Of a stretch of DNA of 36,304 nucleotides, positions 5,477 to 34,720 are shown piece after piece (within the stretch, counting starts at the first letter, position 1; every line of letters begins with the position of its first letter). This DNA is from a bacterium (lineage in GTDB: Bacteria; Patescibacteriota; UBA1384; XYA2-FULL-43-10; JAKAMI01). Below the pieces are notes generated by a model, which did no database searches, was not told the DNA's origin, and worked only from the letters and a program-made list of their open reading frames with translations. A program made the translations under genes and the position numbers. The stretch spans positions 1 through 36,304 of the forward strand of contig JAKAMI010000009.1 of the NCBI GenBank assembly GCA_021812945.1, written 5' to 3'.

Positions 5477-7315
5477 TTACTTGTCTCCTCCGCTGAACCC
5501 GGCCGGCGGTTCCGGCGCCGGGAACGCGTCCGGTGTACTGCCAACCGGCGGGCAGAACACCGGGGTCGGCACACCGTTGATGACTACGGTCTGCCATTGC
5601 GATTGTGTCTGCGACTGCCTCATGAAAAACGGCAGTAACAAGTTCCACTCGGAGTGAACCTGAGGGATACTGACCCTTTGTGAGGCGTCCATACCCCTTA
5701 GGCCCGAGACCTGCCCCTGCCAGACAAACGGCTGGGGAACCAGTTTCGGTGCGCACGGCTTCGGAAGTGGCTCGAGCGTTGGCTTTGTCGGCTCCTTGGG
5801 GAGCACTGCAGGAGTCGTGAACTCCTTACAGACATCCTCCGTGCAAATGTCCGGCTGTAATAGCTTCGCAGGGGGACAGTAAAGCCCTGCCACAAAGTTA
5901 CCGCAGTTCTGGATGATCTGGATAACGTATGTTCTGACCTCATCCGGGAAGATCCAGATCGCCGGAGATTCCGACGACGGCTTCCAACCTTCCTTGTGCG
6001 GCGACAATCCGTAGGCTATCTCGAACTTCTCCAAGGGACGAGCTGGGCGGATTTCATACCGCCACGGTCGTGCATTGAGCTCGGCCTCGACTTCACAGGC
6101 AGAGGTTCCGAGCACCCTCAGGACTTTATCTATGCTGTCGCGCCGTCCTGATCGGAGAAGATCAAGGATGTCTTGAGCCGAGATCGACCGGCGCGGAGCA
6201 TCAGGGTTTCGCCGATTTGCCTGCCAGCAGACAGCCACGATCCCCAGTTCGTTAGGGATGGAAGGACGGGTTGAGTACTCTAGCGCTGAGCCATACTTCA
6301 CGCTTATCTCCGCGCCATCGCACCACCAGACAAATGTCCCTTGACCACCCGAGGCCTGACCACTTGCGACCTGCTCGCCACCACTCAGGATGGAGAATGG
6401 GCCGGTGTAGTCCGAGAGGTAACAGCTTTCGCCATACCTCTCGAAGAAGCGGACAACGGACTTGCGGACAACTGTCCGCTGGCCAGTGACCCGCGTCTCC
6501 TTCTTCGGCTGAGCCGCGGCGCACTCAGCCCGCCAAGTCGCCATATCTTGCTCGTACTGCTTTAACTTCTCGCAGTTACGAGCTTTGACCGCCTCGACCT
6601 CGGCCTCAGTCGGTCCGGTTGGACCTTCTGAGGCGGTCGAGGTGCTGCCGCGAAACATCACTTGACGGATAGCGGCGATTTCCTCCGCGGTGGCGGATAG
6701 GTCCATGGCTGCTGCGCCTCCGGCGCCCATGTGTGCCATGAACCTTGCCGCCCAGATCGGTGACCGTGGCCAGTTGGCCGGCACTGGCACCGACTGGAAA
6801 GAGTAACGGGCCGACGACAGAACATTGGCCGTTATCTTCCCGCTGCCCAGATCGCCGATGACGGGAATGATTGAAAGAATCTTCAACAACCCGCTCTTCG
6901 ACTTCAGGTACGAGGTATCACGACGATACCCCTCCTTCAGTGTAGCGTACACGTAGATGGGATTGACCCCACGGTGCGCCTTGAATGACACACCGTCCGG
7001 AGGAAAAGGGTGAACGACATGGTTCTTAATATCGTCACCGACGGAATAGAAGAGGACGCACTCTTTCGAGGGGTCCGCCTGTAGATCCTCCGGCGTTATG
7101 GTGATCAGCGCGCCTTGCGGCACGCCTTTCATCCACTCCGCCACCTGGCTGTCGAAATCCCAGATCCGGCAATACTGCCCGCCGGCTCCGGGAACCGAGA
7201 CACAACCCGTGGTGATGGGTTTGGCCTCTTCGGAGGTCTCCTTCTCTTGTCCAGCTATCGCTAGCGAGAAGGTAAGGAGTACGGCTACGACGACCAAAAA
7301 GGCTGTGCGTTTCAT
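5477..7315 (-). CDS. orphan secreted cysteine-rich protein of unknown function in a GC-rich island
   Basis: Unrecognised 612-residue protein. The frame is open back to 7519, but the start is placed at the ATG at 7315, because AGGGGG lies about 10 bases upstream and a clear signal peptide (MKRTAFLVVVAVLLTFSLAIAG) follows. The mature part has about 15 Cys, suggesting disulphides, short Pro-rich stretches, a Glu/Lys/Cys-rich coiled stretch around residues 240-285, and a Pro/Gly C-terminus. No transmembrane anchor, sorting motif or catalytic signature was seen. Base composition and codon use (many third-position G/C) differ sharply from both neighbours. It is bounded by a GC-rich hairpin downstream and a 53-bp palindrome upstream. 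Recent transfer from a GC-richer organism fits best; a mis-assembled contig piece is the main alternative. Confidence 0.7.
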   Translation of the reverse strand: MKRTAFLVVVAVLLTFSLAIAGQEKETSEEAKPITTGCVSVPGAGGQYCRIWDFDSQVAEWMKGVPQGALITITPEDLQADPSKECVLFYSVGDDIKNHVVHPFPPDGVSFKAHRGVNPIYVYATLKEGYRRDTSYLKSKSGLLKILSIIPVIGDLGSGKITANVLSSARYSFQSVPVPANWPRSPIWAARFMAHMGAGGAAAMDLSATAEEIAAIRQVMFRGSTSTASEGPTGPTEAEVEAVKARNCEKLKQYEQDMATWRAECAAAQPKKETRVTGQRTVVRKSVVRFFERYGESCYLSDYTGPFSILSGGEQVASGQASGGQGTFVWWCDGAEISVKYGSALEYSTRPSIPNELGIVAVCWQANRRNPDAPRRSISAQDILDLLRSGRRDSIDKVLRVLGTSACEVEAELNARPWRYEIRPARPLEKFEIAYGLSPHKEGWKPSSESPAIWIFPDEVRTYVIQIIQNCGNFVAGLYCPPAKLLQPDICTEDVCKEFTTPAVLPKEPTKPTLEPLPKPCAPKLVPQPFVWQGQVSGLRGMDASQRVSIPQVHSEWNLLLPFFMRQSQTQSQWQTVVINGVPTPVFCPPVGSTPDAFPAPEPPAGFSGGDK

Positions 7316-7494
7316 CAACGCAAGCCCCCTTTCTTTGCCCCGTAGGGCGTATGATAACGTGCCGCCTTGGGCGCTAAGAGAGCCGCTTTTAGCGGCAACA
7401 TGTGCCAAGGCCAATCTCTCCGCTGCTCTGAAGCCCGCGCGAGACGAGTAAATCCTTTGGGTACACTCGTCTAACGCCGGAATTCCGTACATTT
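7316..7494 (-). promoter_or_regulatory. leader of the orphan secreted protein gene
   Basis: GC-rich and free of stops in frame with the gene, but unlikely to be translated, since the signal peptide starts at 7315. On the minus strand it holds GCCGCT AAA AGCGGC (a 6-bp hairpin near 7375-7395), and CAAGGCGGCA further on can compete for the same arm. A structured leader is possible. Confidence 0.35.
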
Positions 7495-7547
7495 CTGAAG
7501 GTGTGAAGCTATTACACATCCGATGTGTAATAGCTTCACACCTTCAG
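7495..7547. repeat. 53-bp near-perfect palindrome at the island border
   Basis: Two 26-base arms (7495-7520 and 7522-7547) are exact reverse complements around the single base C7521. The arms read CTGAAGGTGTGAAGC... on each strand. It lies exactly where GC-rich sequence gives way to host-like sequence. Confidence 0.9.
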
Positions 7548-8000: not shown

Positions 8001-8090
8001 CACGAGTCCGCTTGGCGGCGAGAAATCTCCTGATCCACCATTGTATATCACGCAGGGGATTTCTCGCTCGATGACTCGTTCGAAATGACA
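8001..8090. repeat. dispersed palindrome, GAGAAATCTC family
   Basis: CGAGAAATC (8019-8027) pairs with GGGGATTTCTCG (8055-8066), followed by CTCGATGACTCGTTCGAAAT and GACA. Related copies lie at 19513, 25904 and 27748. It sits just past the pgi stop. Confidence 0.75.
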
Positions 8091-10022: not shown

Positions 10023-11138
10023 TCAAAAGATGATCTTCTTGTGGCGGATCGCTACGCTTTGAATAATTCCGAGAGTAGCGAATGAAACCACCAGCGAACT
10101 CCCGCCCGAGCTTAGGAAGGGCAAGGGTATGCCCGTCACCGGCATCAGACCGATATTCATGCCGATATTTTCAAAGACTTGAAAGAAAAACATCCCCAGG
10201 GCCCCGACAGCAATCAAAAGCCCGAAGTTGTCCTTAGCTATGATGCCTATTTTGATAATACGAACCAGCAGGTAAAAATATATAGCTATAAGTAAAAGCG
10301 AACCGACAAAACCAAATGCCTCGGCAAAACCGGAGAAGATGAAATCGGTCTGGGCTTTAGGTAAAAATTGCAGTTGGGATTGCGAGCCTTGGCCCAGCCC
10401 CCTACCGGCCAGACCGCCGGAACCGACCGCGATTATTGCCTGCTTGACATTGTAACCGCGCCCCAAAACATCCTTCTCCGGATTTAGAAAGACTTCAATC
10501 CGGTCTCTCTGGTAGCTTTTGAGCATTTTGCCGAAAAACGAGACATTTTTCACGGCCAGGGAGAAAACCACCAAGGCGCTCATTAAAAACGTTACCAGTA
10601 TAAAATATTGTCTCTTGGAAAATTTAAGCCAAAACAGAGTCAAAATCATCATAAAGATAATAACCAATGCCGTTCCCAAGTCCGGCTGTTTCAAAACCAG
10701 ATACAAGGGTATGCTGAAAAAGACAATTAAAAATATTATGTCTTTCCAATGAATTTCACCGATTTTATTAGAAAAGTAGCTGGCCCAAAAGAGGATCGAA
10801 GTTACTTTCAATATCTCTGAAGGCTGAATTTGGATCGGACCCAATGAAAGCCACCTGGTAGCGCCTCCCGCGGTATGACCGAAAAGATCAACTACTAAAA
10901 GCAATATTACCGAAGTAATATAAAGCGGCCAGATGATATTTCTGATGTGACGATAGTCGTAGATTGTTAGAAAAACCATCACCGCAATCCCGAGGAGCAA
11001 GGAAATGGCTTGCTTAACAACTAGATTGTCCGCATCTTTAGTGTAAACCAAACTATAGATAACAGCGATGCCGACCAAACTCAAAAGAATCGGTATGACA
11101 TACAGCCAGAGATCAAAGTTTGCAAAATACTTTCTCAT
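10023..11138 (-). CDS. rodA: SEDS peptidoglycan glycosyltransferase RodA
   Basis: Polytopic membrane protein (371 residues, about ten helices) of the SEDS family that polymerises lipid II into glycan strands for side-wall growth with a class B penicillin-binding protein. Family motifs include the ATRWLSLGPIQIQPSEILK block, KQPDLGTALV, GRGYNVKQAIIAVGSGGLAGRGLG, PKAQTDFIFSGFAE with the catalytic Asp near residue 265, and the C-terminal GIPLPFLSSGGSS. It reads as RodA rather than FtsW from the GLGQGSQSQLQFLPKAQTDFIF form. The ATG overlaps the ileS TGA (ATGA), indicating translational coupling. Its presence supports a peptidoglycan wall and rod-like growth. Confidence 0.93.
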   Translation of the reverse strand: MRKYFANFDLWLYVIPILLSLVGIAVIYSLVYTKDADNLVVKQAISLLLGIAVMVFLTIYDYRHIRNIIWPLYITSVILLLVVDLFGHTAGGATRWLSLGPIQIQPSEILKVTSILFWASYFSNKIGEIHWKDIIFLIVFFSIPLYLVLKQPDLGTALVIIFMMILTLFWLKFSKRQYFILVTFLMSALVVFSLAVKNVSFFGKMLKSYQRDRIEVFLNPEKDVLGRGYNVKQAIIAVGSGGLAGRGLGQGSQSQLQFLPKAQTDFIFSGFAEAFGFVGSLLLIAIYFYLLVRIIKIGIIAKDNFGLLIAVGALGMFFFQVFENIGMNIGLMPVTGIPLPFLSSGGSSLVVSFATLGIIQSVAIRHKKIIF

Positions 11139-14113
11139 CTAATTCGCTTGAGGCCCAGAAATAATTTTTGTCCCAACGACGAGATCTCACCCTCAAAATC
11201 GCTTTCGGCTTTTTCGTAATTTATTTCTTCGGCTAAAACCTCATTCTTTATATAATGACCGTGCTTGGTTAGAAGTTGTTTGAGCTCGGAACTTGGGTTA
11301 TTAAAATTCAGACTAATCCTGTCGTCGACCGAGAATCCGGCTTCTTTTCTTTTTTGCTGGATCTGCCTGACAATTTCACGCGCTTCCCCCTCCATCATCA
11401 AATCCTCAGTCAAGTCGGTATCCAGAACGATCTCATCTTTTTGTTTCGGATCGTTAATAATTTCTTTAATATTCAGCTCGTCGGCGATTATCGCCTCAAG
11501 TTCCTCGTCTAACCTGGCGCTATGGTAACGCAAAGACTGAAGCGGTTGGCGAATCCTGATTTTCGCCTGGTTACGAGCGAAAAGTGCCAGCTCGACAATT
11601 TTTCTGACTCGTATCATTTGCTCGGTCAAATCTTCGTCGATCAATCTCTTATCCGCCTTGGGATAATCTTCTAGATGAACCGAGACATTACCGCTCAGAT
11701 TCCTAAAAATCTCCTCGCTAACAAACGGGGTAACCGGAGCCATAACTTTGGTAAGCTCCGCAAGAACAAGGTGAAGAGTCTGATAAGCACATTCTTTGTC
11801 TAGATCATTTTCACTCTTCCAAAACCGCTTTCTGGAACGGCGGATATACCAATTTGAAAGATTATCGATAAATGCCGGGAATAATCTGGCGGCTTTGGCC
11901 AAATTTGCGGAATCGAATGCTCGGTTGGCCGAATCTATCAACTGGTTTAATTCCGAAATAATCCATTTGTCCAGTAGATTGTTGGACGATAATCCCTTGG
12001 TCGGTTTGAAGCCGTCGATGTTGGCGTAGAGGACAAAAAAGGAATAGGAGTTCCAGAGCATGCGCATCACCCCCCGACTCAACTCCCCGACCTCTTTCTC
12101 GGAAAAGTTGAGATTTTCCGCCGCCACCACCGGAGACGACATCAGATATAGCCTTAAAGTATCCGCACCGTATTTATCAAATACAGCCATTGGGTCCGGG
12201 TAATTTTGCAATCTTTTAGACATTTTTTTGCCGTCTTCCGCCAGAACTATACCGTTGACCACCGCATTTTTGAAAGCCGGCTTTTTCATAAGCGCGGTCG
12301 ACAAAACATGCAAATAGTAAAACCAGGCTCGGGTTTGGTCGGAGCCTTCGGCGATGAAATCGGCCGGAAATGACCGTTCGAACTCTTCTTTATGTTCAAA
12401 AGGATAATGTTTCTGAGCATAGGGCATAGATCCGGAATCGAACCAGGTATCCAGGACATCGGGAACCCTGGTCATCTCACCGCCGCAGTCCGGACACTTG
12501 AACGATATTTTGTCGACTATGTGTTTGTGAATGTCGCCGACTTTCCGGCCGGATAACTCTTCCAGCTCCCTAACCGAGCCGATAACTTTCAAGTGATTTT
12601 TGTCCTTACCGCAGATCCAGATCGGGATAACCGAAGCCCAAAAACGTTGTCTGGAGATAGACCAATCCCGCGCATTTTCCAGCCATTTGCCAAAGCGGCC
12701 GTTCTTGATGTGTTTTGGAAACCAATTTATCTCTTTGGCTAGTTCTAAAGCCTTTGGTTTGAGATCAATGACTTTGACGAACCAGGACGAAGTGGCGTAG
12801 TTTAGAAGCGGGGTTTCGCAGCGCCAACAGTGGGGGTAGCTGTGAGCGTACTGCTCTTTGCTAAATAACAGATTTTTTTGGGCTAAATATTTGATTATGA
12901 CCACATCGGTCGATTGGATATCTTCAATAGGTTTGACCGATAATCCGGAAAATTCACCGTAGCCCTCCTTGATAATGCCGTCCATCCCGATGTGCTGGAT
13001 AAAAGATAAATTTTCTTTTTTCGAAAGCTCAAGATCGTCTTCACCGAAAGCCGGGGCGATATGCACGATGCCGGTCCCTTCCTGATCGTCGACAAAATCG
13101 GCCGTAACGACCACAAACTCACGCAGACCGGACGCGGGCTTAGGCGGAAAATTAAAGAGTGGTTTGTATTTTTTGCCAGCCAGATCAGAACCGGAGAGCT
13201 CCTTGATGATTTTGTAGTCTTGGTCTTTGATAACTTCCTTGACCCGGTCTTTGGCAAGAATAAAGCTCTTGTTAATGTCATTCTGAGGCTTTGCCGAAGA
13301 ATCCTGTAGTTTATGGGATCCTTCACCGCCGGTCCGCGGTTCAGGATGACTCGCTAAGTGTACCTTGATGTATTTGATATCTTTATTCACTGCCAGAGCC
13401 ACATTCCCAAAAAGGGTCCAAGGAGTGGTGGTCCAAGCCAGAAGATATGTCCTCGGCTCATCAACCAGTTCGAATTTTACCACCGCCGATAAATCTTTGA
13501 CATCGCGATAACCCTCAGCCACCTCCGACTGTGATAATGTTGTTTCACAGCGCGGGCAGATGTGCATTGAACGATACCCTTCGTAAATCAAATTCTTGTT
13601 GTAAAGTTCTTTGAAAACCCACCAGACCGACTCCATAAAGTTTAAATCCATAGTCTTGTAGGCGTTTTTTATATCGGCCCAGCGCCCCAGACGGGTGATA
13701 ACTTTTTTCCATTCATCCACATATCCCAGAACTTTAGAACGGCAAAACTCGTTGAATTTCTCCACGCCAAACTTTAGAATCTCTTTTTTATGAGTAATCT
13801 TGAGTTCTTTTTCGGCAATATTTTCGATGGGCAGACCGTGACAATCCCAACCCCATTTCCGCTCAACATAAAAACCTTTCATAGTCTGATAGCGCGGGAT
13901 AACATCCTTGATGGTGCTGGCGACTATATGACCGTAATGCGGGGTTCCGGTGGCAAACGGCGGTCCATCGTAAAATGAATAACGTTTGGCATTTTTCCGC
14001 AGTTCTAAGGATTTCTCAAAAATGTTGTTCGTTTCCCAATACTCAAGAACCGCCCTTTCCATTTCAGGGAAGGTGATCTTATCTTTCAGTGGCTTAAAAT
14101 TTGGTTCTCTCAT
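11135..14113 (-). CDS. ileS: isoleucyl-tRNA synthetase, eukaryote-like type
   Basis: Charges tRNA-Ile and edits mischarged Val-tRNA. The 992 residues (ATG at 14113; a TTG at 14137 would add eight) show the HIGH motif as PHYGHI (58-63), WDCHGLPIE in the editing entry, CPRCE and CPDCGGEM zinc pairs, and KMSKR in GKKMSKRLQNYPDP (about residue 630). The KMSKR form and the YSFYDGPPFATGTPHYGHI block place it in the eukaryote-like class often insensitive to mupirocin (family knowledge). An extra stretch of about 25-30 residues, starting HPEPRTGGEGSHKLQDSSAK, interrupts the segment before FILAKDRVKEV. Its DNA (13277-13350) is a copy of the dispersed palindromic repeat. Otherwise all landmarks are intact. 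Confidence 0.95.
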   Translation of the reverse strand: MREPNFKPLKDKITFPEMERAVLEYWETNNIFEKSLELRKNAKRYSFYDGPPFATGTPHYGHIVASTIKDVIPRYQTMKGFYVERKWGWDCHGLPIENIAEKELKITHKKEILKFGVEKFNEFCRSKVLGYVDEWKKVITRLGRWADIKNAYKTMDLNFMESVWWVFKELYNKNLIYEGYRSMHICPRCETTLSQSEVAEGYRDVKDLSAVVKFELVDEPRTYLLAWTTTPWTLFGNVALAVNKDIKYIKVHLASHPEPRTGGEGSHKLQDSSAKPQNDINKSFILAKDRVKEVIKDQDYKIIKELSGSDLAGKKYKPLFNFPPKPASGLREFVVVTADFVDDQEGTGIVHIAPAFGEDDLELSKKENLSFIQHIGMDGIIKEGYGEFSGLSVKPIEDIQSTDVVIIKYLAQKNLLFSKEQYAHSYPHCWRCETPLLNYATSSWFVKVIDLKPKALELAKEINWFPKHIKNGRFGKWLENARDWSISRQRFWASVIPIWICGKDKNHLKVIGSVRELEELSGRKVGDIHKHIVDKISFKCPDCGGEMTRVPDVLDTWFDSGSMPYAQKHYPFEHKEEFERSFPADFIAEGSDQTRAWFYYLHVLSTALMKKPAFKNAVVNGIVLAEDGKKMSKRLQNYPDPMAVFDKYGADTLRLYLMSSPVVAAENLNFSEKEVGELSRGVMRMLWNSYSFFVLYANIDGFKPTKGLSSNNLLDKWIISELNQLIDSANRAFDSANLAKAARLFPAFIDNLSNWYIRRSRKRFWKSENDLDKECAYQTLHLVLAELTKVMAPVTPFVSEEIFRNLSGNVSVHLEDYPKADKRLIDEDLTEQMIRVRKIVELALFARNQAKIRIRQPLQSLRYHSARLDEELEAIIADELNIKEIINDPKQKDEIVLDTDLTEDLMMEGEAREIVRQIQQKRKEAGFSVDDRISLNFNNPSSELKQLLTKHGHYIKNEVLAEEINYEKAESDFEGEISSLGQKLFLGLKRIR
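13277..13350. repeat. palindromic repeat inserted in frame in ileS
   Basis: Starts GTCATTCTGAG and ends TTCAGGATGAC, with GAAGAATCCTG and GGATCCTTC inside, the same blocks in the same order as the intergenic copies at 16871-16954 and 34537-34620 (allowing for orientation). It is translated as about residues 255-279 of IleRS with no frameshift or stop. Confidence 0.85.
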
Positions 14114-14133
14114 ACAATAATATATTAGCCCAA

Positions 14134-14361
14134 TCAAGCCTGTATTTCAATCTCGAGCAATTTTGTCTTCGAGCGTCGACCCGATTTAATTCGAATCAGA
14201 GATTTGGCAATACAAAAATTCCCGGCAATCAATTTAATTAGTTCTTTGTTGGCAAGATCATCGTGTGGCGGTGAGATCAAATCCGCCCGATATTTATTGG
14301 TACCGGTCTTGACAAGAGATAAATGAGCAGACTTGGTTTTAACTTGAACCTCAATTAACAT
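14134..14361 (-). CDS. DUF167 (YggU-like) protein
   Basis: Small cytoplasmic protein of the DUF167/YggU family, whose function is not established. The 75 residues show the family pattern: an initial VQVKTKSAH strand, NKYRADLISPPHDDLANKEL (the family usually has DGKAN before KEL), a helix, then KSLIRIKSGRRSKTKLLEIEI. The ATG at 14361 is preferred, because the longer frame to 14403 would overlap rnhA by 53 bases while this start overlaps it by 11. It ends just before ileS and is probably co-translated with rnhA. Confidence 0.85.
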   Translation of the reverse strand: MLIEVQVKTKSAHLSLVKTGTNKYRADLISPPHDDLANKELIKLIAGNFCIAKSLIRIKSGRRSKTKLLEIEIQA

Positions 14362-15928: not shown

Positions 15929-16050
15929 GTCATCCTGAACCGACGCAGTCGTCCCGAGTCTAACCGAGGGATCTGCGATCTGTTTCAGGATCCTATAGTT
16001 TATGCCGCAGATCATGGAATACTTCGATTCGCCAACTCTTTCAGGATGAC
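15929..16050. repeat. long GTCATCCTGA...TCAGGATGAC repeat
   Basis: Opens with GTCATCCTGA and closes with TCAGGATGAC. Inside are GGATCTGCGATCTG and a matching CAGATCATGG, so it seems to be two nested copies of the dispersed palindrome. It ends about ten bases before the stop of the prepilin gene at 16061. Confidence 0.7.
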
Positions 16051-16060
16051 ATGTGATCGA

Positions 16061-16825
16061 TCATTGCGGACGTTCTTGGAAATTTCGGGAAGAGATGGCA
16101 TTTTTGGTTTCCAAAACGCTACTGCTACCGCCGCCAAGTAGTCCCTCGGCCTTTACTTTAAGATCCGTCTCTAAAAACGGGTGCTGCGGGTTGACAACCG
16201 GCCGGCCCAAAATGGCCAGATAATTTGTGCCGTTAAAACTCAGGCTATCTATCACGGAACCCGTGTTTTTCAGCAAGTATTTATCCGACATCGATTCGGG
16301 AATAATTTTGTTAACTCCGCAATCAGAGGTGTCGCTCTTTAGCATCTTGCAGGGGGATCCGGCGATGGTCCGGCCGTAAAGTTTCTTTGTAGCGGTCTCG
16401 AAATAATAAATAATGTAATCTTCGCCTATAGAGTTGTCTTTGGCGCCGATTACCAGATTTCCTCCGCCGGATGGATCGAAACTAGACTGAATGGCTGGCG
16501 TGCCGGAAGAAGATTGATAGCTAAAAATAGCGAACCCTTTGACCTGATAGATGTCTGACGAGGCGGAAGACCCGCCGGATAAACCCCCGGCCATAGCCTC
16601 GATCTTGTACCAGCCGGTGGCGCTTTTTAAGTCGTTAAAAATATTGTTATTGATCTGTTGTGAAAACTCCACGTTATTGATACTGGCTTTGGTGGAAACC
16701 TGCATGTTGCTGGAAGAGCCAAAAATACCGGCGGTGACCACCACTGTAACCGCAAAGATCGAGACTGCGATAAGCATCTCGATAAGGGTAAAAGCTGGTT
16801 TGTTGATAATTATTCGTTGGTTCAT
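16061..16825 (-). CDS. type IV prepilin-like protein (PilW/PulJ-like)
   Basis: Minor pilin or pseudopilin of 254 residues. The N-terminus KPAFTLIEMLIAVSIFAVTVV carries a class III signal peptide: cleavage is expected before Phe, with Glu at +5 and a hydrophobic helix. The residue at -1 is Ala rather than Gly. The long C-terminal part is Ser/Gly-rich, as in PilW-type minor pilins, and has two Cys (SPCKMLKSDTSDCG). AAGG lies just before the ATG. It is the last gene of the pilus locus. Confidence 0.85.
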   Translation of the reverse strand: MNQRIIINKPAFTLIEMLIAVSIFAVTVVVTAGIFGSSSNMQVSTKASINNVEFSQQINNNIFNDLKSATGWYKIEAMAGGLSGGSSASSDIYQVKGFAIFSYQSSSGTPAIQSSFDPSGGGNLVIGAKDNSIGEDYIIYYFETATKKLYGRTIAGSPCKMLKSDTSDCGVNKIIPESMSDKYLLKNTGSVIDSLSFNGTNYLAILGRPVVNPQHPFLETDLKVKAEGLLGGGSSSVLETKNAISSRNFQERPQ

Positions 16826-16870
16826 GACCTTATTTGTGTGTCATTCCCGCGCAGGATGACGAGTTGTTTA

Positions 16871-16954
16871 TGTCATCCTGAGTGAGTCATCGAACGAAGG
16901 ATCCTGGTGTCCGCCGCAAAGTTCAGGATTCTTCGCTTATGGCTCAGAATGACA
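16871..16954. repeat. GTCATCCTGAG palindromic repeat
   Basis: Reference copy of the family: GTCATCCTGAGTGAGTCATC..., GAAGGATCCTG, GCCGCAAA, TTCAGGATTCTTCGC, closing GGCTCAGAATGAC. The two ends are imperfect inverted repeats. It fills the gap between two prepilin genes. Confidence 0.85.
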
Positions 16955-16964
16955 TAGTCCTAAC

Positions 16965-17576
16965 TTAAAACTTTGGCAGCCAATCTGATAAATATGTGTT
17001 TAGAACCACTTCTTGCGGGCCAAAAGAATCCCAGATTACTCTTGATTCAATCTGATAAATCTTGGGGATCATCCCGTTAGCTGGATGATTAAGCGCCTGA
17101 TCAGTGGAGCCGGTAACTTCAAAAGGAGTAATATTACTTGGCGGTATTTCTTTAACGCTAACCGACCCTTCGTAATTGGCGTATGAATTATCCCCGAAAA
17201 GCAGCGGCTGCGGTTGAACCTGGCCGACGGGAGCGGTAAAAAGATAAAAACCGGTAGACGAAGAGGCTATATAATACCTGCCGCCGTCTTGCACCGCCAC
17301 CGGTTCGGTCTTTCGCGGGCCAACCCAAGCGCTCCAGCCTTTGCCGTCGGCGTTCGAGGCATCCAAAAAAATATTGTCTCTGATGTTTCTGACCTTCTCC
17401 AGCTGGCTTTGGGCGATGCTTGTCGCCTGGGCCATTTGGGCTTTCCTGACGATATTTCGGAGAGAAGCTGAACCCAAAGCGACCGACCCCAAAAGTACCA
17501 GCATCAGCACCGTGATGGCCACAAGGGTTTCAATAATACTAAAAGCCGGTTCTGTCCGTAGCGATTGATTTTTCAT
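16965..17576 (-). CDS. type IV prepilin-like protein (PilV/GspI-like)
   Basis: 203 residues with the leader TEPAFSIIETLVAITVLMLV, a prepilin cleavage site (Ala at -1, Phe +1, Glu +5) and hydrophobic helix, then RKAQMAQATSIAQSQLEKVRNIRDN, typical of GspI/PilV minor pilins, where this helix packs into the pilus tip complex. It ends in a W-rich tail (VIWDSFGPQEV...DWLPKF). Its first 38 bases overlap the end of the preceding prepilin gene, implying coupled translation. Confidence 0.86.
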   Translation of the reverse strand: MKNQSLRTEPAFSIIETLVAITVLMLVLLGSVALGSASLRNIVRKAQMAQATSIAQSQLEKVRNIRDNIFLDASNADGKGWSAWVGPRKTEPVAVQDGGRYYIASSSTGFYLFTAPVGQVQPQPLLFGDNSYANYEGSVSVKEIPPSNITPFEVTGSTDQALNHPANGMIPKIYQIESRVIWDSFGPQEVVLNTYLSDWLPKF

Positions 17577-18048
17577 TGATCGTAATATTTATCTGTTCAC
17601 CTGATTGATTTTTGAGTTCAATCGCAATCGGAGCCTCGGCATTTAGAGTCCCTTTTGGAGCCAAATATATAATATTCAGGTCTCCAGTAATGCTTATCCC
17701 GTTTGTGGGAGTGTGAATTTCCAGCTTGTTACTGAGGCCGGGTATCGGGGTACAACTTTTTTGAAGATCAATCATCCGGTACTCTGACAACAATGTACCC
17801 TCCGGATCGGTCTTTAGGACAATCTGATTGCAGCTGTTCGGATTGTAGTTTGAACTGTCGGTGTAGACCCGGCTCGAGGCTTCATTCCGAGCCGACTCAA
17901 TGAACGATCTGACCGAATCGGCCAGCAGGATCAGGTTGTTGCGGCGTTCGTAAGTTTGGTACTGCGATACAGAAATACCTAGCATTACCAGCAAAATGCT
18001 CATAGCGATCAAAAGCTCAATGAGGGTAAAAGCCTGCTTTTTTTTCAT
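17539..18048 (-). CDS. type IV prepilin-like protein (GspH/FimT-like)
   Basis: 169 residues. [24 protein letters not shown] is a class III signal (Ala at -1). The part that follows (LADSVRSFIESARNEASSRVYTD) resembles the GspH/FimT minor pilin layout, in which a long helix precedes a beta domain. It has two Cys (NSCNQI, KSCTPI). It starts three bases after the previous gene's stop and overlaps the next gene, so it sits in the minor-pilin operon. Confidence 0.86.
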   Translation of the reverse strand: MKKKQAFTLIELLIAMSILLVMLGISVSQYQTYERRNNLILLADSVRSFIESARNEASSRVYTDSSNYNPNSCNQIVLKTDPEGTLLSEYRMIDLQKSCTPIPGLSNKLEIHTPTNGISITGDLNIIYLAPKGTLNAEAPIAIELKNQSGEQINITINEKSIATDRTGF

Positions 18049-18051
18049 AAA

Positions 18052-18597
18052 CTACCAGTTTTTGGTCGTCTCCGAGTTGCTAGATACTTGATAATCGGCG
18101 CATCCTCCGTTTGCCGGATCATAGTATTCTGCCGCAAACTCCTGGCAATTACCGGAATTTGGCAAATACTCGACGTTATTGGCGATAAGTTTGTAATCCA
18201 AAAAATCGGGAGAAGTTTTATAAATATACCCTTTCAAGGTATCAGGCACCGGATCGAGCGGGACATTTGCGATATAGCCCTGAGTCAGGAGCTCCTTTAT
18301 CGTTCCATCGGCCGCGGCACCGCTAATCCCGGAACAACCGAATTGGTCCTGGTCAATTTTGGCCGAAGGACGGCCGGATAAATCCTCCGAACCTTGCGCT
18401 TTGCATGGCTTCGGATATTTGCCTTTTTGCGCTTTATAACTCTCCAGGGCAACGGAGATCGCTTTGATATCGGATTTTCTTTTGGCGTCGCGAGACTTGG
18501 CCTGGGCGCCGATCACGTTGTAAATAATTATAGTCGTCAAAATAGAAATGATTGCAATGACGATAATCAGCTCGATCAAAGTAAACGCTTTTTTCAT
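18052..18597 (-). CDS. type IV major-pilin-like protein (GspG/PilA-like)
   Basis: 181 residues from the ATG at 18597, chosen because GGAGGG precedes it and the leader is then simply [26 protein letters not shown] is the prepilin helix, followed by GAQAKSRDAKRKSDIKAISVALESYKAQKGKYP, the pattern of major pilins and GspG-type pseudopilins. Four Cys are present (PCKAQ, FGCSG, NCQEF, GGCAD), probably two disulphides near the C-terminus. It lies directly after pilD. Confidence 0.88.
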   Translation of the reverse strand: MKKAFTLIELIIVIAIISILTTIIIYNVIGAQAKSRDAKRKSDIKAISVALESYKAQKGKYPKPCKAQGSEDLSGRPSAKIDQDQFGCSGISGAAADGTIKELLTQGYIANVPLDPVPDTLKGYIYKTSPDFLDYKLIANNVEYLPNSGNCQEFAAEYYDPANGGCADYQVSSNSETTKNW

Positions 18598-18703
18598 ATT
18601 CCCTCCACTGAGTTGATATTGACGACAACGCACAGAAAAGGCGCAAAATAATCAATCCAAAGATGCGATAAATACCTCCGTGGGAGACATTCGACCCAAT
18701 AAA

Positions 18704-19462
18704 CTAAAGGATGAATCTCCCCAAATACCAGTCGATGATCCGCTGGCCCCAAAGCATCGAGGCGACCAGTCCGAAAAGCAGAAAAGGCGTAAACGGCAGT
18801 CGGTCTTTGCCAGATTTCCGTTTCATGGCAATCAAAACCGTGCCGACAACCGCACCGCTGATAAATGAGGCGAAGACTGAAAATATGGCTGCAGGAAAAG
18901 ACAAAAACAAGCCTATGGCCAGCGCTATCTTGATATCGCCGTCTCCCATCCACTTGCCCCTCGAAATAAAAACTAAAAGCGCGATGACGCCGCCGGAGAC
19001 CAGTCCGCCCAAAATAACAGAGCCTATTTTGTCATAGTTTAGTAAAATCATACCGATCAACGCCATTCCGAACAGAAGCCACGACAAAACTTCCGGAACC
19101 ATCAGTTCCCGAAGGTCAAAGACAACAATCACCAAAAGCAAAGACAGGGTAAATGCCGACAAAACGGACATCCAGCTTAGTCCGTATACATAATAAGAAA
19201 GCGCGAATAGAAGCGCTGTTAGCCCCTCGACGATCGGATATTGGATGGAGATCTTTTCCCGGCAAGCTCGACATCGACCACCTAAAATAATGAAGCTGAT
19301 GACGGGGACTAGATCGTATGCTTTGATTTGAGTCTGGCACTTTTGGCACTTTGAGGATCCAAAAACCAGACTTTCAGCCTCCCTCAACCTAAAAATAACC
19401 ACATTTAGAAAACTTCCCACAAGCAGACCGGCGATGATGTAGATAATGTAATAGTAGAGCAT
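18704..19462 (-). CDS. pilD: prepilin peptidase / N-methyltransferase
   Basis: Integral membrane aspartic protease (A24 family) that removes prepilin leaders on the cytoplasmic side and methylates the new N-terminus. The 252 residues start with GLLVGSFLNVVIFRL, have the cytoplasmic zinc loop CQKC (39-42) and CRAC (64-67) linked to the methylase part, and have the two catalytic Asp at 116 (VFDLRELMVP) and 176 (GDGDIKIA). Several further helices follow. No ribosome site is obvious. It must process the six prepilins here, most of which have Ala at -1. Confidence 0.95.
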   Translation of the reverse strand: MLYYYIIYIIAGLLVGSFLNVVIFRLREAESLVFGSSKCQKCQTQIKAYDLVPVISFIILGGRCRACREKISIQYPIVEGLTALLFALSYYVYGLSWMSVLSAFTLSLLLVIVVFDLRELMVPEVLSWLLFGMALIGMILLNYDKIGSVILGGLVSGGVIALLVFISRGKWMGDGDIKIALAIGLFLSFPAAIFSVFASFISGAVVGTVLIAMKRKSGKDRLPFTPFLLFGLVASMLWGQRIIDWYLGRFIL

Positions 19463-19512
19463 CGTGAATACTAATTACGAAAACGAATTGCAATATATTG
19501 CACATATTATTA

Positions 19513-19613
19513 TCATTTCGACATCCTTAAACTCGTCGCAGGACGAGAAATCTCATGATCTAATATTAAATCCTGCAGGGGATTTCTCACTCAATGACTA
19601 ATTCGAAATGACA
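19513..19613. repeat. GAGAAATCTC family palindrome
   Basis: CATTTCGACATCC...GACGAGAAATCTCATGATC is mirrored by CCTGCAGGGGATTTCTCACTC...AATTCGAAATGACAG. It is a longer, more complete copy of the element at 8001-8090. Confidence 0.8.
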
Positions 19614-19641
19614 GCGATTGGTTACGAAACAGGTAGGAAAT

Positions 19642-19798
19642 CAAACAAGACACAGACAAATTCCAAATCTCAAGCCGCAACAACCAAACGGTTCCGTTTG
19701 AATTTTGAATATTGATTATTGGAATTTTTTTGTATCTTGTTTCTTGGTTATTGGAATTTGATTTTTGGTTCTCATAGTCCCGATAGAACCATCGGGAC
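19642..19798. repeat. AT-rich inverted repeats and a GTCCCGAT hairpin
   Basis: CAAATTCCAA (19657-19666) matches TTGGAATTTG (19751-19760), and an AAACAAGACACAG arm is echoed by TGTATCTTGTTT. GTCCCGAT (19777-19784) pairs with ATCGGGAC (19791-19798) shortly past the pilin stop at 19813 and may act as its transcript end. No gene was seen in 19463-19812. Confidence 0.65.
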
Positions 19799-19812
19799 AT
19801 ATTAGAATCAAA

Positions 19813-20319
19813 CTAATCGTTGCCGACAACTAAGACCTTGCTGGAACTGGTCCCGCGGGCGGCATTGAAAGGATTAATCCTCCAGGTTGGGTCGGGAGTT
19901 CCCGTCGGAGCCGAGTTAATCACTCCGGAATCGTTGTCATTCTGGTTTTCAATAGCTGCAGCCAAGCCGTAATCGGTACCGTTTGAGGCATATTGGTATG
20001 CGCTCGAAGCTATTGTGCCCGTCGGACGACTGCCCGGATCGTTTGGTATAGATTTCATGTAAGCCATAGAGCCGTTGAACAAGCTGCCAACTGTGGCATC
20101 GACTGCCGCAATTGCCGCGGTCGGGTTGTAGCCGTTTGGTTTCTGGTCGGCATAGTAAAGCTCGAGTGCAGCTTTAATGTTTCTAAGATCGCTCTTTCTC
20201 TGAGCATCGCGAGCCTTGCTTCTGGCGCCGCTTAGGGCAACCAAAACCATGGCGGCCAAGATACCGATGATGGCGATAACCACCAGCAGTTCGATTAAAG
20301 TGAAGCCTCTCCTTTTCAT
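19813..20319 (-). CDS. type IV pilin-like protein (major pilin candidate)
   Basis: 168 residues from the ATG at 20319, which has a strong AGGAGG five bases upstream; the longer frame to 20364 overlaps the upstream gene. [28 protein letters not shown] is a textbook prepilin leader and the only one here with Gly at -1. It is followed by [29 protein letters not shown], close to the major pilins of other candidate-phylum bacteria. No Cys. The C-terminus ends [15 protein letters not shown]. The strong ribosome site suggests high expression. Confidence 0.9.
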
Positions 20320-20351
20320 TTTCCTCCTAATGAATAAATATATTAAATGAT

Positions 20352-20798
20352 TTAAGGCTGACAATTATCGTTATTTTTTACGTTGCCATTCTCGTACATA
20401 CAGGCTGTTGTGTAATTATTTTTTGGAGTGTAGATAAAGGCTTGGTAAATCCCATTGGTCGGTTGCACAACGACATAAAATGAGCTAGTCCATCCGCTTG
20501 GCTGAGTCGGTACATTACTCCCAATCACTTTTTTAAACTTATCCACTCCGGCATTACCCTGCGCGCTCATAAAAGCTGATATAGTCATCCCGCCTTGAGC
20601 AAAATCTCCATAAACCGCACCGTCTGCAACCGTGACCATCAACGCGTCGTCGATGGTCTTGACATCCGACTTGGCTTTGACGTAATTGGCCTTGTCGCGG
20701 GCGTTAATCAGATTCATGATAATAATGATTGCCAAAATGGCGATAATGGCTATCACTATTAGTAGCTCTATGAGCGTAAAAGCTTTCCGCTTTTTCAT
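20352..20798 (-). CDS. type IV pilin-like protein
   Basis: 148 residues: [29 protein letters not shown], then [23 protein letters not shown], a prepilin helix with Ala at -1. Two Cys near the C-terminus (TTACMYENG and NDNCQP) can form the D-region disulphide of type IV pilins. An AGGAGG site lies just before the ATG, and a promoter is visible at 20828-20856. It is the first pilin of the locus and ends 32 bases before the next pilin start. Confidence 0.9.
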
Positions 20799-20880: not shown

Positions 20881-20970
20881 AATGACGGTCTTTATGGGGT
20901 GTGCAAAGACTGTCATCCTGAATCGCGACCGATCTTATCCTGATCTGCGGGATTGATCCGTGGCGGTCAC
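20881..20970. repeat. AATGACGGTCTTT hairpin plus GTGGCGGTCAC unit
   Basis: AATGACGGTCTTT (20881-20893) pairs with AAAGACTGTCAT (20905-20916), one wobble. After it comes a segment ending GTGGCGGTCAC (20960-20970), the inverse of the start of the element at 22185. It fills the gap after pilC. Confidence 0.75.
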
Positions 20971-22184: not shown

Positions 22185-22264
22185 GTGACCGCCACAGATC
22201 AACTCCACAGATAAGGACAGGATCCATCAGCGGCAGATCAGTGGAATTGATCAGTGGAGGTCAC
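22185..22264. repeat. 80-bp inverted-repeat element between pilT and pilC
   Basis: GTGACCGCCAC (22185-22195) is mirrored by GTGGAGGTCAC (22254-22264), 10 of 11 positions. Inside are two GATCAGTGGAATT-type copies. Related pieces lie at 20960-20970 and 31994-32031. Confidence 0.75.
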
Positions 22265-22277
22265 GGCACGTTATTAT

Positions 22278-23345
22278 TTAATACACCATCATTTTGAAAC
22301 TCTTTGGGTCGATGGCCCAACTCATGGCGTCATCAACCGAAACTTCGCCCTTGCTGACCAGTTCCGCCAAAACTTTGTCCAGACTAATCATCCCTGACGA
22401 AGAAGAGGTTTGGATCACGTTTGGTATTTGATGAATCTTGCCTTCCCGGATTAGATTGCGAATGGCCGAATCCACCACCATAATTTCTGTCGCCAGGACT
22501 CGACCGCCGCTAACCTTTGGTAGCAGACGCTGAGAGACTACCCCCAATAGCACATTGGCCAGCTGCGATCTGACTTGGTCCTGCTGGTGCGAAGGGAACA
22601 TACTGATAATACGATCCGCAGTTTGGGCGGAGGAATTGGTATGAAGAGTAGTCAGGACCAGATGGCCGGTTTCGGCCAGATTTAAAGCCGCCTCCACCGT
22701 CTCTAAGTCCCGCATTTCACCCACCAAAATAACGTCCGGGTCCTCTCGAAGCGCCGAGCGCAATGCCTTGCCGAAAGAATTGGTATCTATGCCGATCTCT
22801 CTTTGCGAGATTATGCTTTTATTATGTTCAAAGACGTATTCTATGGGGTCCTCAATGGTAATAATGTGCTCGCGTCGATTTTTGTTGATGCTGTCCACCA
22901 TCGCTGCCAAGGTGGTCGATTTACCGTGCCCCGCAGGACCGGTGACTATGACAAAGCCTTGGCTGGACTGAACAAATCGCTCTATAATAGCCGGCAGGCC
23001 AAGTTCCTCGAAGGTCCTGACTTTGTTCGGAATCAAACGGAAAGAAGCAGCCAATTCCCCTTTCTGGTAATATAGATTTGCACGAAAGCGACATTCGCCG
23101 TGGCCGAAAGAGAAATCAACTTCCTTGAGCTCCTTCAGTTCGGCGGCGCCGTCTTCACTAAAAAAACCGTCTAGGGCAGCCCTCATCGAGGCAGTGTCAA
23201 ACGGAGCGATATCCTTGATCTCAACCAACTTATCATCGACCCTCAGGATAGGAGCACTATCGACTATCAAATGAAGATCGGTGGCATTTTTCTTTATGGC
23301 AAAATCTAAGAGTGCGCCGATCTTCTGATTTTCTTTAAAATACAC
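22278..23345 (-). CDS. pilT: type IV pilus retraction ATPase
   Basis: Hexameric cytoplasmic ATPase that drives pilus retraction (twitching, DNA uptake). 355 residues with an N-terminal PAS-like part (LLDFAIKKNATDLHLI), Walker A GPAGHGKST (136-144), the Asp-box region with IEDPIEY, Walker B VILVGEMRD (205-213), the His box TGHLVLTTLHTN (226-237), and a close match to the PilT C-terminal AIRNLI motif (AIRNLIREGKIHQI). Walker A has Ala and His where GPTGSGKST is usual; both are loop positions. The start is GTG at 23345 with AAGGAGGG just upstream. A strong promoter lies at 23432-23460. Confidence 0.96.
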   Translation of the reverse strand: MYFKENQKIGALLDFAIKKNATDLHLIVDSAPILRVDDKLVEIKDIAPFDTASMRAALDGFFSEDGAAELKELKEVDFSFGHGECRFRANLYYQKGELAASFRLIPNKVRTFEELGLPAIIERFVQSSQGFVIVTGPAGHGKSTTLAAMVDSINKNRREHIITIEDPIEYVFEHNKSIISQREIGIDTNSFGKALRSALREDPDVILVGEMRDLETVEAALNLAETGHLVLTTLHTNSSAQTADRIISMFPSHQQDQVRSQLANVLLGVVSQRLLPKVSGGRVLATEIMVVDSAIRNLIREGKIHQIPNVIQTSSSSGMISLDKVLAELVSKGEVSVDDAMSWAIDPKSFKMMVY

Positions 23346-27747: not shown

Positions 27748-27894
27748 TGTTATTTCGAAAGAGTTTTCGAATGAGAAATCCCCTGCGCTATTATCATAAA
27801 TTTAGTTTGCGGCGAAATGTAGCTTGTTCCGTCATTCTGAACGCAGTGAAGAATCTCTGCCTATGGAATAGATCCTTCGCAAGCTCAGGATGAC
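27748..27894. repeat. two palindromic repeats between pilN and the giant gene
   Basis: 27748-27800 is a partial GAGAAATC-family copy (TTATTTCGAAAG...GAGAAATCCCCTGCG). 27831-27894 is a GTCATTCTGA...GAAGAATC...GATCCTTCGC...TCAGGATGAC copy. Apart from the pilN promoter nothing else is seen in 27613-27946. Confidence 0.75.
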
Positions 27895-31959: not shown

Positions 31960-32328
31960 CCTACTCCCTTCTTACAAATTAATATTGAACTGTAACCTCC
32001 ACAGATCAATTCCACTGATTCGCCACTGACACATCCGGCGCTGACCGTTTCTCCAATTAGACTGTAGCCTTTCTTATGATATTTTGTCATCCTGAGCCGA
32101 TGTCTGTCATCCTAGGCTAATGTCATCCTGAGCTACATAAACACCTACATTATACTTAACCTACATTGTAATTTCCATTTTCGAAAATTGCAAATCTCCC
32201 GTCCGATTATGACCGGCGATGCCGCCCACGAAGTGGTAGTATGCCGGTTAATCGAATGATTTTGGGCACATCTGATTTATTATTGAAGAAATGTCATTTA
32301 TTTGTTAAGGTAGTAGTGTCCAAATCGA
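31960..32328. other. gene-free divergent gap
   Basis: This gap separates the minus-strand pilus region from the plus-strand tRNA unit. It holds a CCTCCACAGATCAATTCCAC-type repeat (31994-32031) and a short array of three GTCATCCT units (32085-32135). A promoter for the tRNA unit is expected here, but no hexamer pair stands out (TTGAAG with a poor -10 near 32290-32315 is the best). Confidence 0.5.
32085..32135. repeat. three GTCATCCTGAG units in tandem
   Basis: TGTCATCCTGAGCCGA, TGTCATCCTAGGCTAA and TGTCATCCTGAGCTAC follow one another. They are the outer end of the dispersed palindrome repeated without its inner part. Confidence 0.7.
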
Positions 32329-34536: not shown

Positions 34537-34720
34537 GTCATCCTGAGCGAGTCATCGAGCAAAGGATCCCGCCGCCAGTGCCGCAAATTGCAGGATTCTT
34601 CGCTAATCACTCAGAATGACGTGTTGTCTATGTCATCCTGAAAGAGTCAGCGACTGAAGGATCCCGTTGCATGCCTATAAAGTTTGGGATTCTTCTCCCG
34701 CTGAGCAGGATCAGAACGAC
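34537..34720. repeat. two consecutive GTCATCCTGAG palindromes
   Basis: 34537-34620 (GTCATCCTGAGCGAGTCATC...TTCGC...CTCAGAATGAC) and 34632-34720 (GTCATCCTGAAAGAGTCAGC...CAGAACGAC) stand head to tail in the gap between holB and ricT. They match the copy at 16871-16954 along their length. Confidence 0.85.

Follow-up and report, generated by a model that had tools for sequence, protein, structure and literature searches.

In 2013, Di Nocera, De Gregorio and Rocco described a superfamily of CGTC-tagged REPs to which the Rickettsia palindromic elements RPE-4 and RPE-6 belong (PMC3733652). These repeats have a stem of 8–9 bp, a loop of 4–5 nt and a 3-nt unpaired tail, mostly CCA, and are listed for five phyla. 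They were found inside DNA-repair and tRNA genes of several phyla, and the same work includes CGTC repeats without a transposase (PMC3733652). The frequency in Rickettsia was called unusually high in a 2024 review (PMC10969869). Before now, repeat DNA becoming protein was known mainly from Rickettsia and scattered other bacteria.

The original prediction, which concerned a palindrome inside the ileS gene, knew of no such case in candidate-phylum bacteria. That part stood: we found no reports of such elements from these bacteria in the open-access literature, and nothing relevant on the encoded peptide or the DNA word of the element. Novelty in general is less than was suggested, since translated REPs have been known in several bacterial phyla since 2013. 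New here are the group of hosts, how densely core genes are filled with in-frame inserts, and that the same loops are used again and again.

A two-hairpin repeat inside ileS

The window, by which we mean the whole 36,304-nucleotide stretch analyzed, carries ileS on the minus strand at 11135–14137, encoding an isoleucyl-tRNA synthetase (IleRS) of 1000 amino acids when read from a TTG codon (TIGR00392, 918 bits, cut-off 621). The likelier start is an ATG at 14113, eight codons inside the TTG-opened ORF. Inside the gene, at 13277–13350 on the minus strand, lies a 74-bp palindrome, GTCATTCTGAG...TTCAGGATGAC, which is a head-to-head REP dimer with two hairpins. Together with one flanking base, the 74 bp make up 25 codons in a stop-free frame. 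These are codons 263–287, encoding the residues SHPEPRTGGEGSHKLQDSSAKPQND, which are followed by INKSFILAKDRV. The original prediction of about 25 in-frame residues just before FILAKDRV thus agrees with the codons covered by the element, and these residues are presumably present in the mature protein. The HYGH and KMSKR motifs are present, as had been claimed, and the flanking WTTTPWT segment aligns with relatives.

Arm 1 (13317–13350, minus strand) consists of a GTC tag, an ATCCT/AGGAT stem, a GA/GA step and an apical ACCGC/GCGGT stem, assigned from the sequence, the arm pattern with its stem covariation, and the fold of most of the arm. Arm 2 (13277–13303, plus strand), assigned from sequence, covariation and fold, has a GTC tag, an ATTCT/AGAAT stem, GA/GA and an apical GGC/GCC stem. 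A 13-bp spacer, defined by sequence, separates the arms at 13304–13316. With the preceding base, the tag reads TGTC on arm 2 and AGTC on the other arm. As RNA, the insert has a strong fold (−30.5 kcal/mol, z −4.8), and it was more stable than shuffled sequences on both strands (z −4.8 and −4.3).

The blocks that the element was proposed to share with intergenic copies were confirmed: the arm at 13277–13312 is 81–82% complementary to intergenic positions 16918–16955 and 34585–34620, although the first copy starts at 16872 rather than 16871. Repeat searches of the window located intergenic dimers of the same subfamily at 16872–16953, 27831–27894 and 34537–34620. Another intergenic dimer, at 34632–34720, adjoins the last of these and has one terminal arm with one mismatch, and a degenerate intergenic dimer occupies 15948–16050.

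The repeat is present in the genome (G000; 912 kb in 42 contigs) far above chance. The word GTCATYCTGA was counted 128 times over the two strands of the whole genome and its reversed form 0 times, and the pair GTCATYCTGA-N(20-50)-TCAGRATGAC occurs 22 times against 0 for the reversed pattern. A general hairpin-dimer search, which covered 841 kb, returned 62 head-to-head dimers of any subfamily and 0 in the reversed sequence; 21 of the 62 pair one TTCTGA arm with one TCCTGA arm, counting head-to-head pairs only. The arm layout is GTC, ATYCT, GA, a variable apical stem-loop, GA, AGRAT and C. Each arm is its own hairpin, and the pair is arranged head to head, so that the GTC tags point outward. 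At the variable stem position of 85 arms, covariation is near-perfect, with 51 C-G pairs, 31 T-A pairs and 3 mismatches. Distinct apical segments have pairing ends in 30 of 50 cases (shuffle mean 6.6). The GTC tag itself was fixed by the arm search; in the 85 arms it is preceded most often by T (60 arms), then by C (17 arms). In the main subfamily, a 5-bp stem and GA/GA enclose an apical segment of 5–18 nt, and the tails are CTAT, CTCT, CCTG and similar. Related words are also frequent in the genome (GTCATTCCCG, 51 occurrences; GTCATTTCGA, 18; GTCATTCCGG, 13; GTCATCCCGA, 13; GTCATGCTGA, 12; GTCATTGCGA, 11), with 0 to 2 for the controls.

Several other repeats were seen. Another subfamily with GTCATTTCGA ends and GAGAAATCCCC, likely a REP of the same kind, lies at 8044–8090, 19567–19613 and 27748–27787 in the window. 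Elsewhere in the genome, intergenic dimers with a GAGCTTGCGAAGGATC arm, such as that at C30:60051-60113, often have longer outer inverted repeats (ATGTAGCTTGTTCT ... AGAACAAGCTACAT) and may be a subfamily that expanded recently. Inverted copies of a separate repeat (GATCAGTGGCGGTCAC / GTGACCGCCACAGATC) are found at window positions 20931–20970, 22185–22279 and 31977–32036, and a perfect 26-bp inverted repeat with a 1-bp gap (7495–7547) lies at the start of the ORF at 5477–7519. In addition, a similar segment (GCGATAAGCATCTCGATAAGGGTAAAAGC) occurs at five places within 16767–20792 and may be the conserved start of a pilin-like gene cluster.

The element shares several features with the CGTC REPs. 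In both, the GTC tag is mostly TGTC or CGTC, the stem begins with AT and each unit forms its own stem-loop; both occur as many dispersed copies and as head-to-head dimers, often with unlike arms; and in both, units lie in frame inside genes and no transposase gene flanks them. The differences are a 5-bp stem with GA/GA and a variable apical stem-loop, compared to the 8–9 bp stem and 4–5 nt loop of the published repeats, a tail of CTA, CTC or CCT rather than CCA, and a host phylum outside the five listed. Because the stem layout and tail differ, we classify the element as a variant of the CGTC REPs, while other subfamilies of this genome (GTCATTCCCGCGAAGGCGGGAAT, GTCATCCTGAACTTGTTTCAGGAT) look like the published layout.

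The comparison with Rickettsia palindromic elements made at the outset proved apt: RPE-4 and RPE-6, themselves CGTC REPs, have the same kind of tag and dimer arrangement, and they, like RPE-1, are in-frame palindromes in many unrelated genes. However, RPEs are described as ≈150 bp, longer than most dimers here, and the present host is not an alphaproteobacterium. The GTAG-3 REPs of E. coli and relatives (BIMEs) also resemble the element, having a stem, a non-complementary di- or trinucleotide and then a complementary GC/GC or GGC/GCC apical part, and inverted pairs of units. Their tag is GTAG rather than GTC, E. coli REPs seldom overlap coding regions, and the Y1 transposase genes here lack flanking pairs of the repeats. 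The element behaves like a Rickettsia palindromic element and is close to the CGTC superfamily, of which it is a variant, and repeat DNA appears to turn into protein in this genome in largely the same way as in Rickettsia.

The IleRS loop in relatives

Searches identified an IleRS in 60 relatives, of which 29 were aligned. The nearest, from the same order, are at most ≈66% identical over the synthetase, a distance at which the exact insertion point and any short duplication are beyond resolution. The loop between the KV strand and (F/Y)ILAKDR has 32 residues here and 7 to 12 in several relatives of the same order (for example G009, G004, G006, G001, G005 and G008); subtracting the 25 codons of the element leaves 7. 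In agreement with the alignment check set beforehand, the loop is short in nearly all of the 29 aligned relatives, and the solved IleRS structure 8c8u has 5 residues where IleRS here has 31. An equally long, conserved and unrelated peptide at this place, which would have spoken against an insertion, was not found in the 29 aligned sequences. No second IleRS of comparable score appeared among the matches listed for this genome.

In G007, a member of another family, the IleRS loop contains a separate copy of the element (CHSERSEESQRSFANTQDD) at a slightly different offset, whereas the congener of G007, G005, has none. The longer loop of G023 (KEKLLNPSRTLRTGKLEE) may come from another repeat.

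An AlphaFold2 model of IleRS built from 17 aligned sequences had a mean pLDDT of 88. The only internal stretch with pLDDT below 50 was 264–288, between strands 255–261 and 291–295. The model fits a disordered loop on an otherwise intact IleRS.

A larger domain was noticed elsewhere in the same protein of G007: near query residue 534, a complete histidine phosphatase domain (PF00300, E 6.7e-36; L135:3108-3689, G007:C24) lies inside the IleRS. Long gaps in the IleRS match at about this site were also seen in G018, G002, G022, G034, G042, G051 and G060.

In-frame dimers in other genes and genomes

A genome-wide search for copies inside genes and their reading frame, as the original prediction had suggested, revealed at least 20 dimers in frame within 17 genes recognized by curated families in 841 kb of the genome. 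One dimer each was present in ileS, alaS, leuS, uvrC, ligA, pcrA/uvrD, tgt, mnmA, prmC, rsmA, rsmI, rfbD, a family-2 glycosyltransferase gene and the gene for ribosomal protein S6, where it lies in the C-terminal extension. Two each were present in the polA-type 5'-3' exonuclease gene, recG and tsaD, the tsaD pair being of different subfamilies. The 20 are made up of 16 family-checked dimers from the hairpin-dimer search, the S6 dimer, and the uvrC, rfbD and second tsaD dimers from other repeat searches. The count excludes an N-terminal copy in rseP (C6:9552), a possible second glycosyltransferase split between contigs (C21:24104 and C18:8), and C8:484, all of them unverified. More than one in four palindrome dimers in this 0.9-Mb genome are in frame in conserved genes.

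Among the 62 dimers, 16 of them in genes, 13 of the 22 with length 3n+2 lie in genes, compared to 3 of the 40 of other lengths (Fisher p 1.9e-5), an argument that is partial, as the in-gene search itself required an open frame. A scan for genes broken by a dimer gave no clear case in this genome.

In the PolA of G003, the matches flanking both insert sites are 6 nt apart, compared to 32 and 39 residues here. With only the insert peptide matching, the PolA query also hit four other places in the genome it comes from, and three of these contain internal stop codons. In UvrC relatives, the insert is absent and the loop short. The LigA insert is less clean because its site is length-variable in relatives; relative to the E. 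coli structure, it is an insertion. The AlaRS insert seems to have partly replaced a native segment. No second match for alaS or ligA was found in this genome.

The same loops are used in other genomes. Repeat-derived peptides occupy the AlaRS loop in five sampled genomes (G000, G001, G002, G004 and G007), ranging from a single unit in G001 to mixed subfamilies in G004, and are absent in G005, G006, G008, G009 and G010. In PolA loop 2 the dimer is of the GTCATTCCCG type in this genome but of the GTCATTCTGA type in G007, and the UvrC inserts of these two genomes are at neighboring but different places. By inspection, G007 also has in-frame copies in ORFs resembling priA, folD and secA. Loops that relatives have filled with different repeats provide natural experiments on where proteins tolerate inserts.

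Origin, effect and spread of the inserts

Most likely, IleRS tolerates the ileS insert as a loop with a near-neutral effect. The insert would have arisen when one of the dispersed head-to-head dimers of CGTC-type REPs was copied into the IleRS editing domain, at a beta-hairpin loop that was short; since 74 bp and one flanking base give 25 stop-free codons, the gene would still be translated, and the encoded peptide would be accommodated by the enzyme as a disordered loop on its surface. The same process would have struck many core genes in this genome and in its relatives, with frame-breaking copies lost by selection and in-frame copies in flexible loops staying and drifting. We consider this account as a whole highly probable. 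It starts from the observed match to a genomic repeat, the in-frame position, the short loop of relatives and the recurrence in genes and genomes; from these we infer that the insert is translated, that its effect is near-neutral and that the repeat moved into the gene. The original proposal that a copied palindrome becomes protein sequence is likewise supported by the short loops of relatives and the in-frame dimers, its translation step being the presumptive part.

The insert might instead be present in the mRNA and absent from the protein, through ribosome bypass of the hairpin or removal from the RNA, and the strong fold of the insert RNA would suit such a mechanism. However, either process could do without an open frame, yet the scan gave no clear example of a dimer that disrupts the frame of a gene, and the length bias of in-gene dimers points, if partially, the same way; we regard this as very improbable. 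Somewhat less remote, but still improbable, is that the inserts are adaptive, the repeat peptides being positively selected because they alter how active tRNA and DNA-repair enzymes are or how they are regulated. Many hosts do act in tRNA charging, tRNA modification or DNA repair, as in other phyla (PMC3733652), and the same AlaRS, IleRS and PolA loops are filled in several genomes. Against this, the peptides differ between genomes and come from different subfamilies, the insert is disordered in the IleRS model, and neutrality would also be expected to leave survivors in genes that are long and conserved and have flexible loops. A misjoined repeat in the assembly is hardly credible: short repeats do break this assembly, one such dimer being the place where contigs C18 and C21 overlap, but the ileS frame continues on both flanks, the same is seen in many genes and other genomes have inserts at the same loops.

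A further alternative concerns the history of the inserts rather than their nature, namely that each shared site received one ancestral insert, over which gene conversion later wrote other repeats. The families with AlaRS inserts are f1, f2 and f3, while f4 has none, which makes one gain with a few losses about as parsimonious as several gains. On the other hand, the IleRS element starts at the fourth residue after KV here and at the second in G007, the subfamilies in PolA loop 2 differ between genomes, and the congener of G007 lacks both the IleRS and the AlaRS inserts. We therefore think a single ancestral insert unlikely, and have counted the possible overwriting of an old insert against the account of REP dimer entry. 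Judging from the sequences compared, the shared-site inserts are likely to be separate insertions. It is conceivable, though we would hesitate to call it probable, that in this order REP dimers of several subfamilies repeatedly insert, without target duplication, into the same permissive loops of core enzymes that act on tRNA or in DNA repair. Repeat-to-protein conversion would then regularly supply very small genomes with new protein segments.

Direct repeats of 2–6 bp at the borders of 119 dimers were not above shuffled pairings at any offset tested, and the target-site duplication expected of a MITE was thus lacking. A dedicated RAYT (a Y1, RAYT-like transposase) was considered as the mover and found to be unsupported. 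This genome has five Y1 transposase genes, none of them between a pair of these repeats; none of 29 Y1 loci in 11 genomes had a flanking pair of these repeats within 700 bp, and G108 and G112 carry the repeat without a Y1 match over threshold. Genomes rich in CGTC-type repeats are places to seek the enzyme that moves them. The paired pattern is patchy among relatives, being present in 21 of 119 genomes, with 37 copies in G007. In named genomes the pattern is spread over many phyla; the matches listed included Komeilibacteria, Shapirobacteria, Curtissbacteria, Levybacteria and Uhrbacteria, as well as Clostridia, Bacteroidota, Omnitrophota and Rickettsiales. Of the 87 listed copies in named genomes, 6 lie in long ORFs, one of which, in a Levybacterium, is gatB-like by motif.
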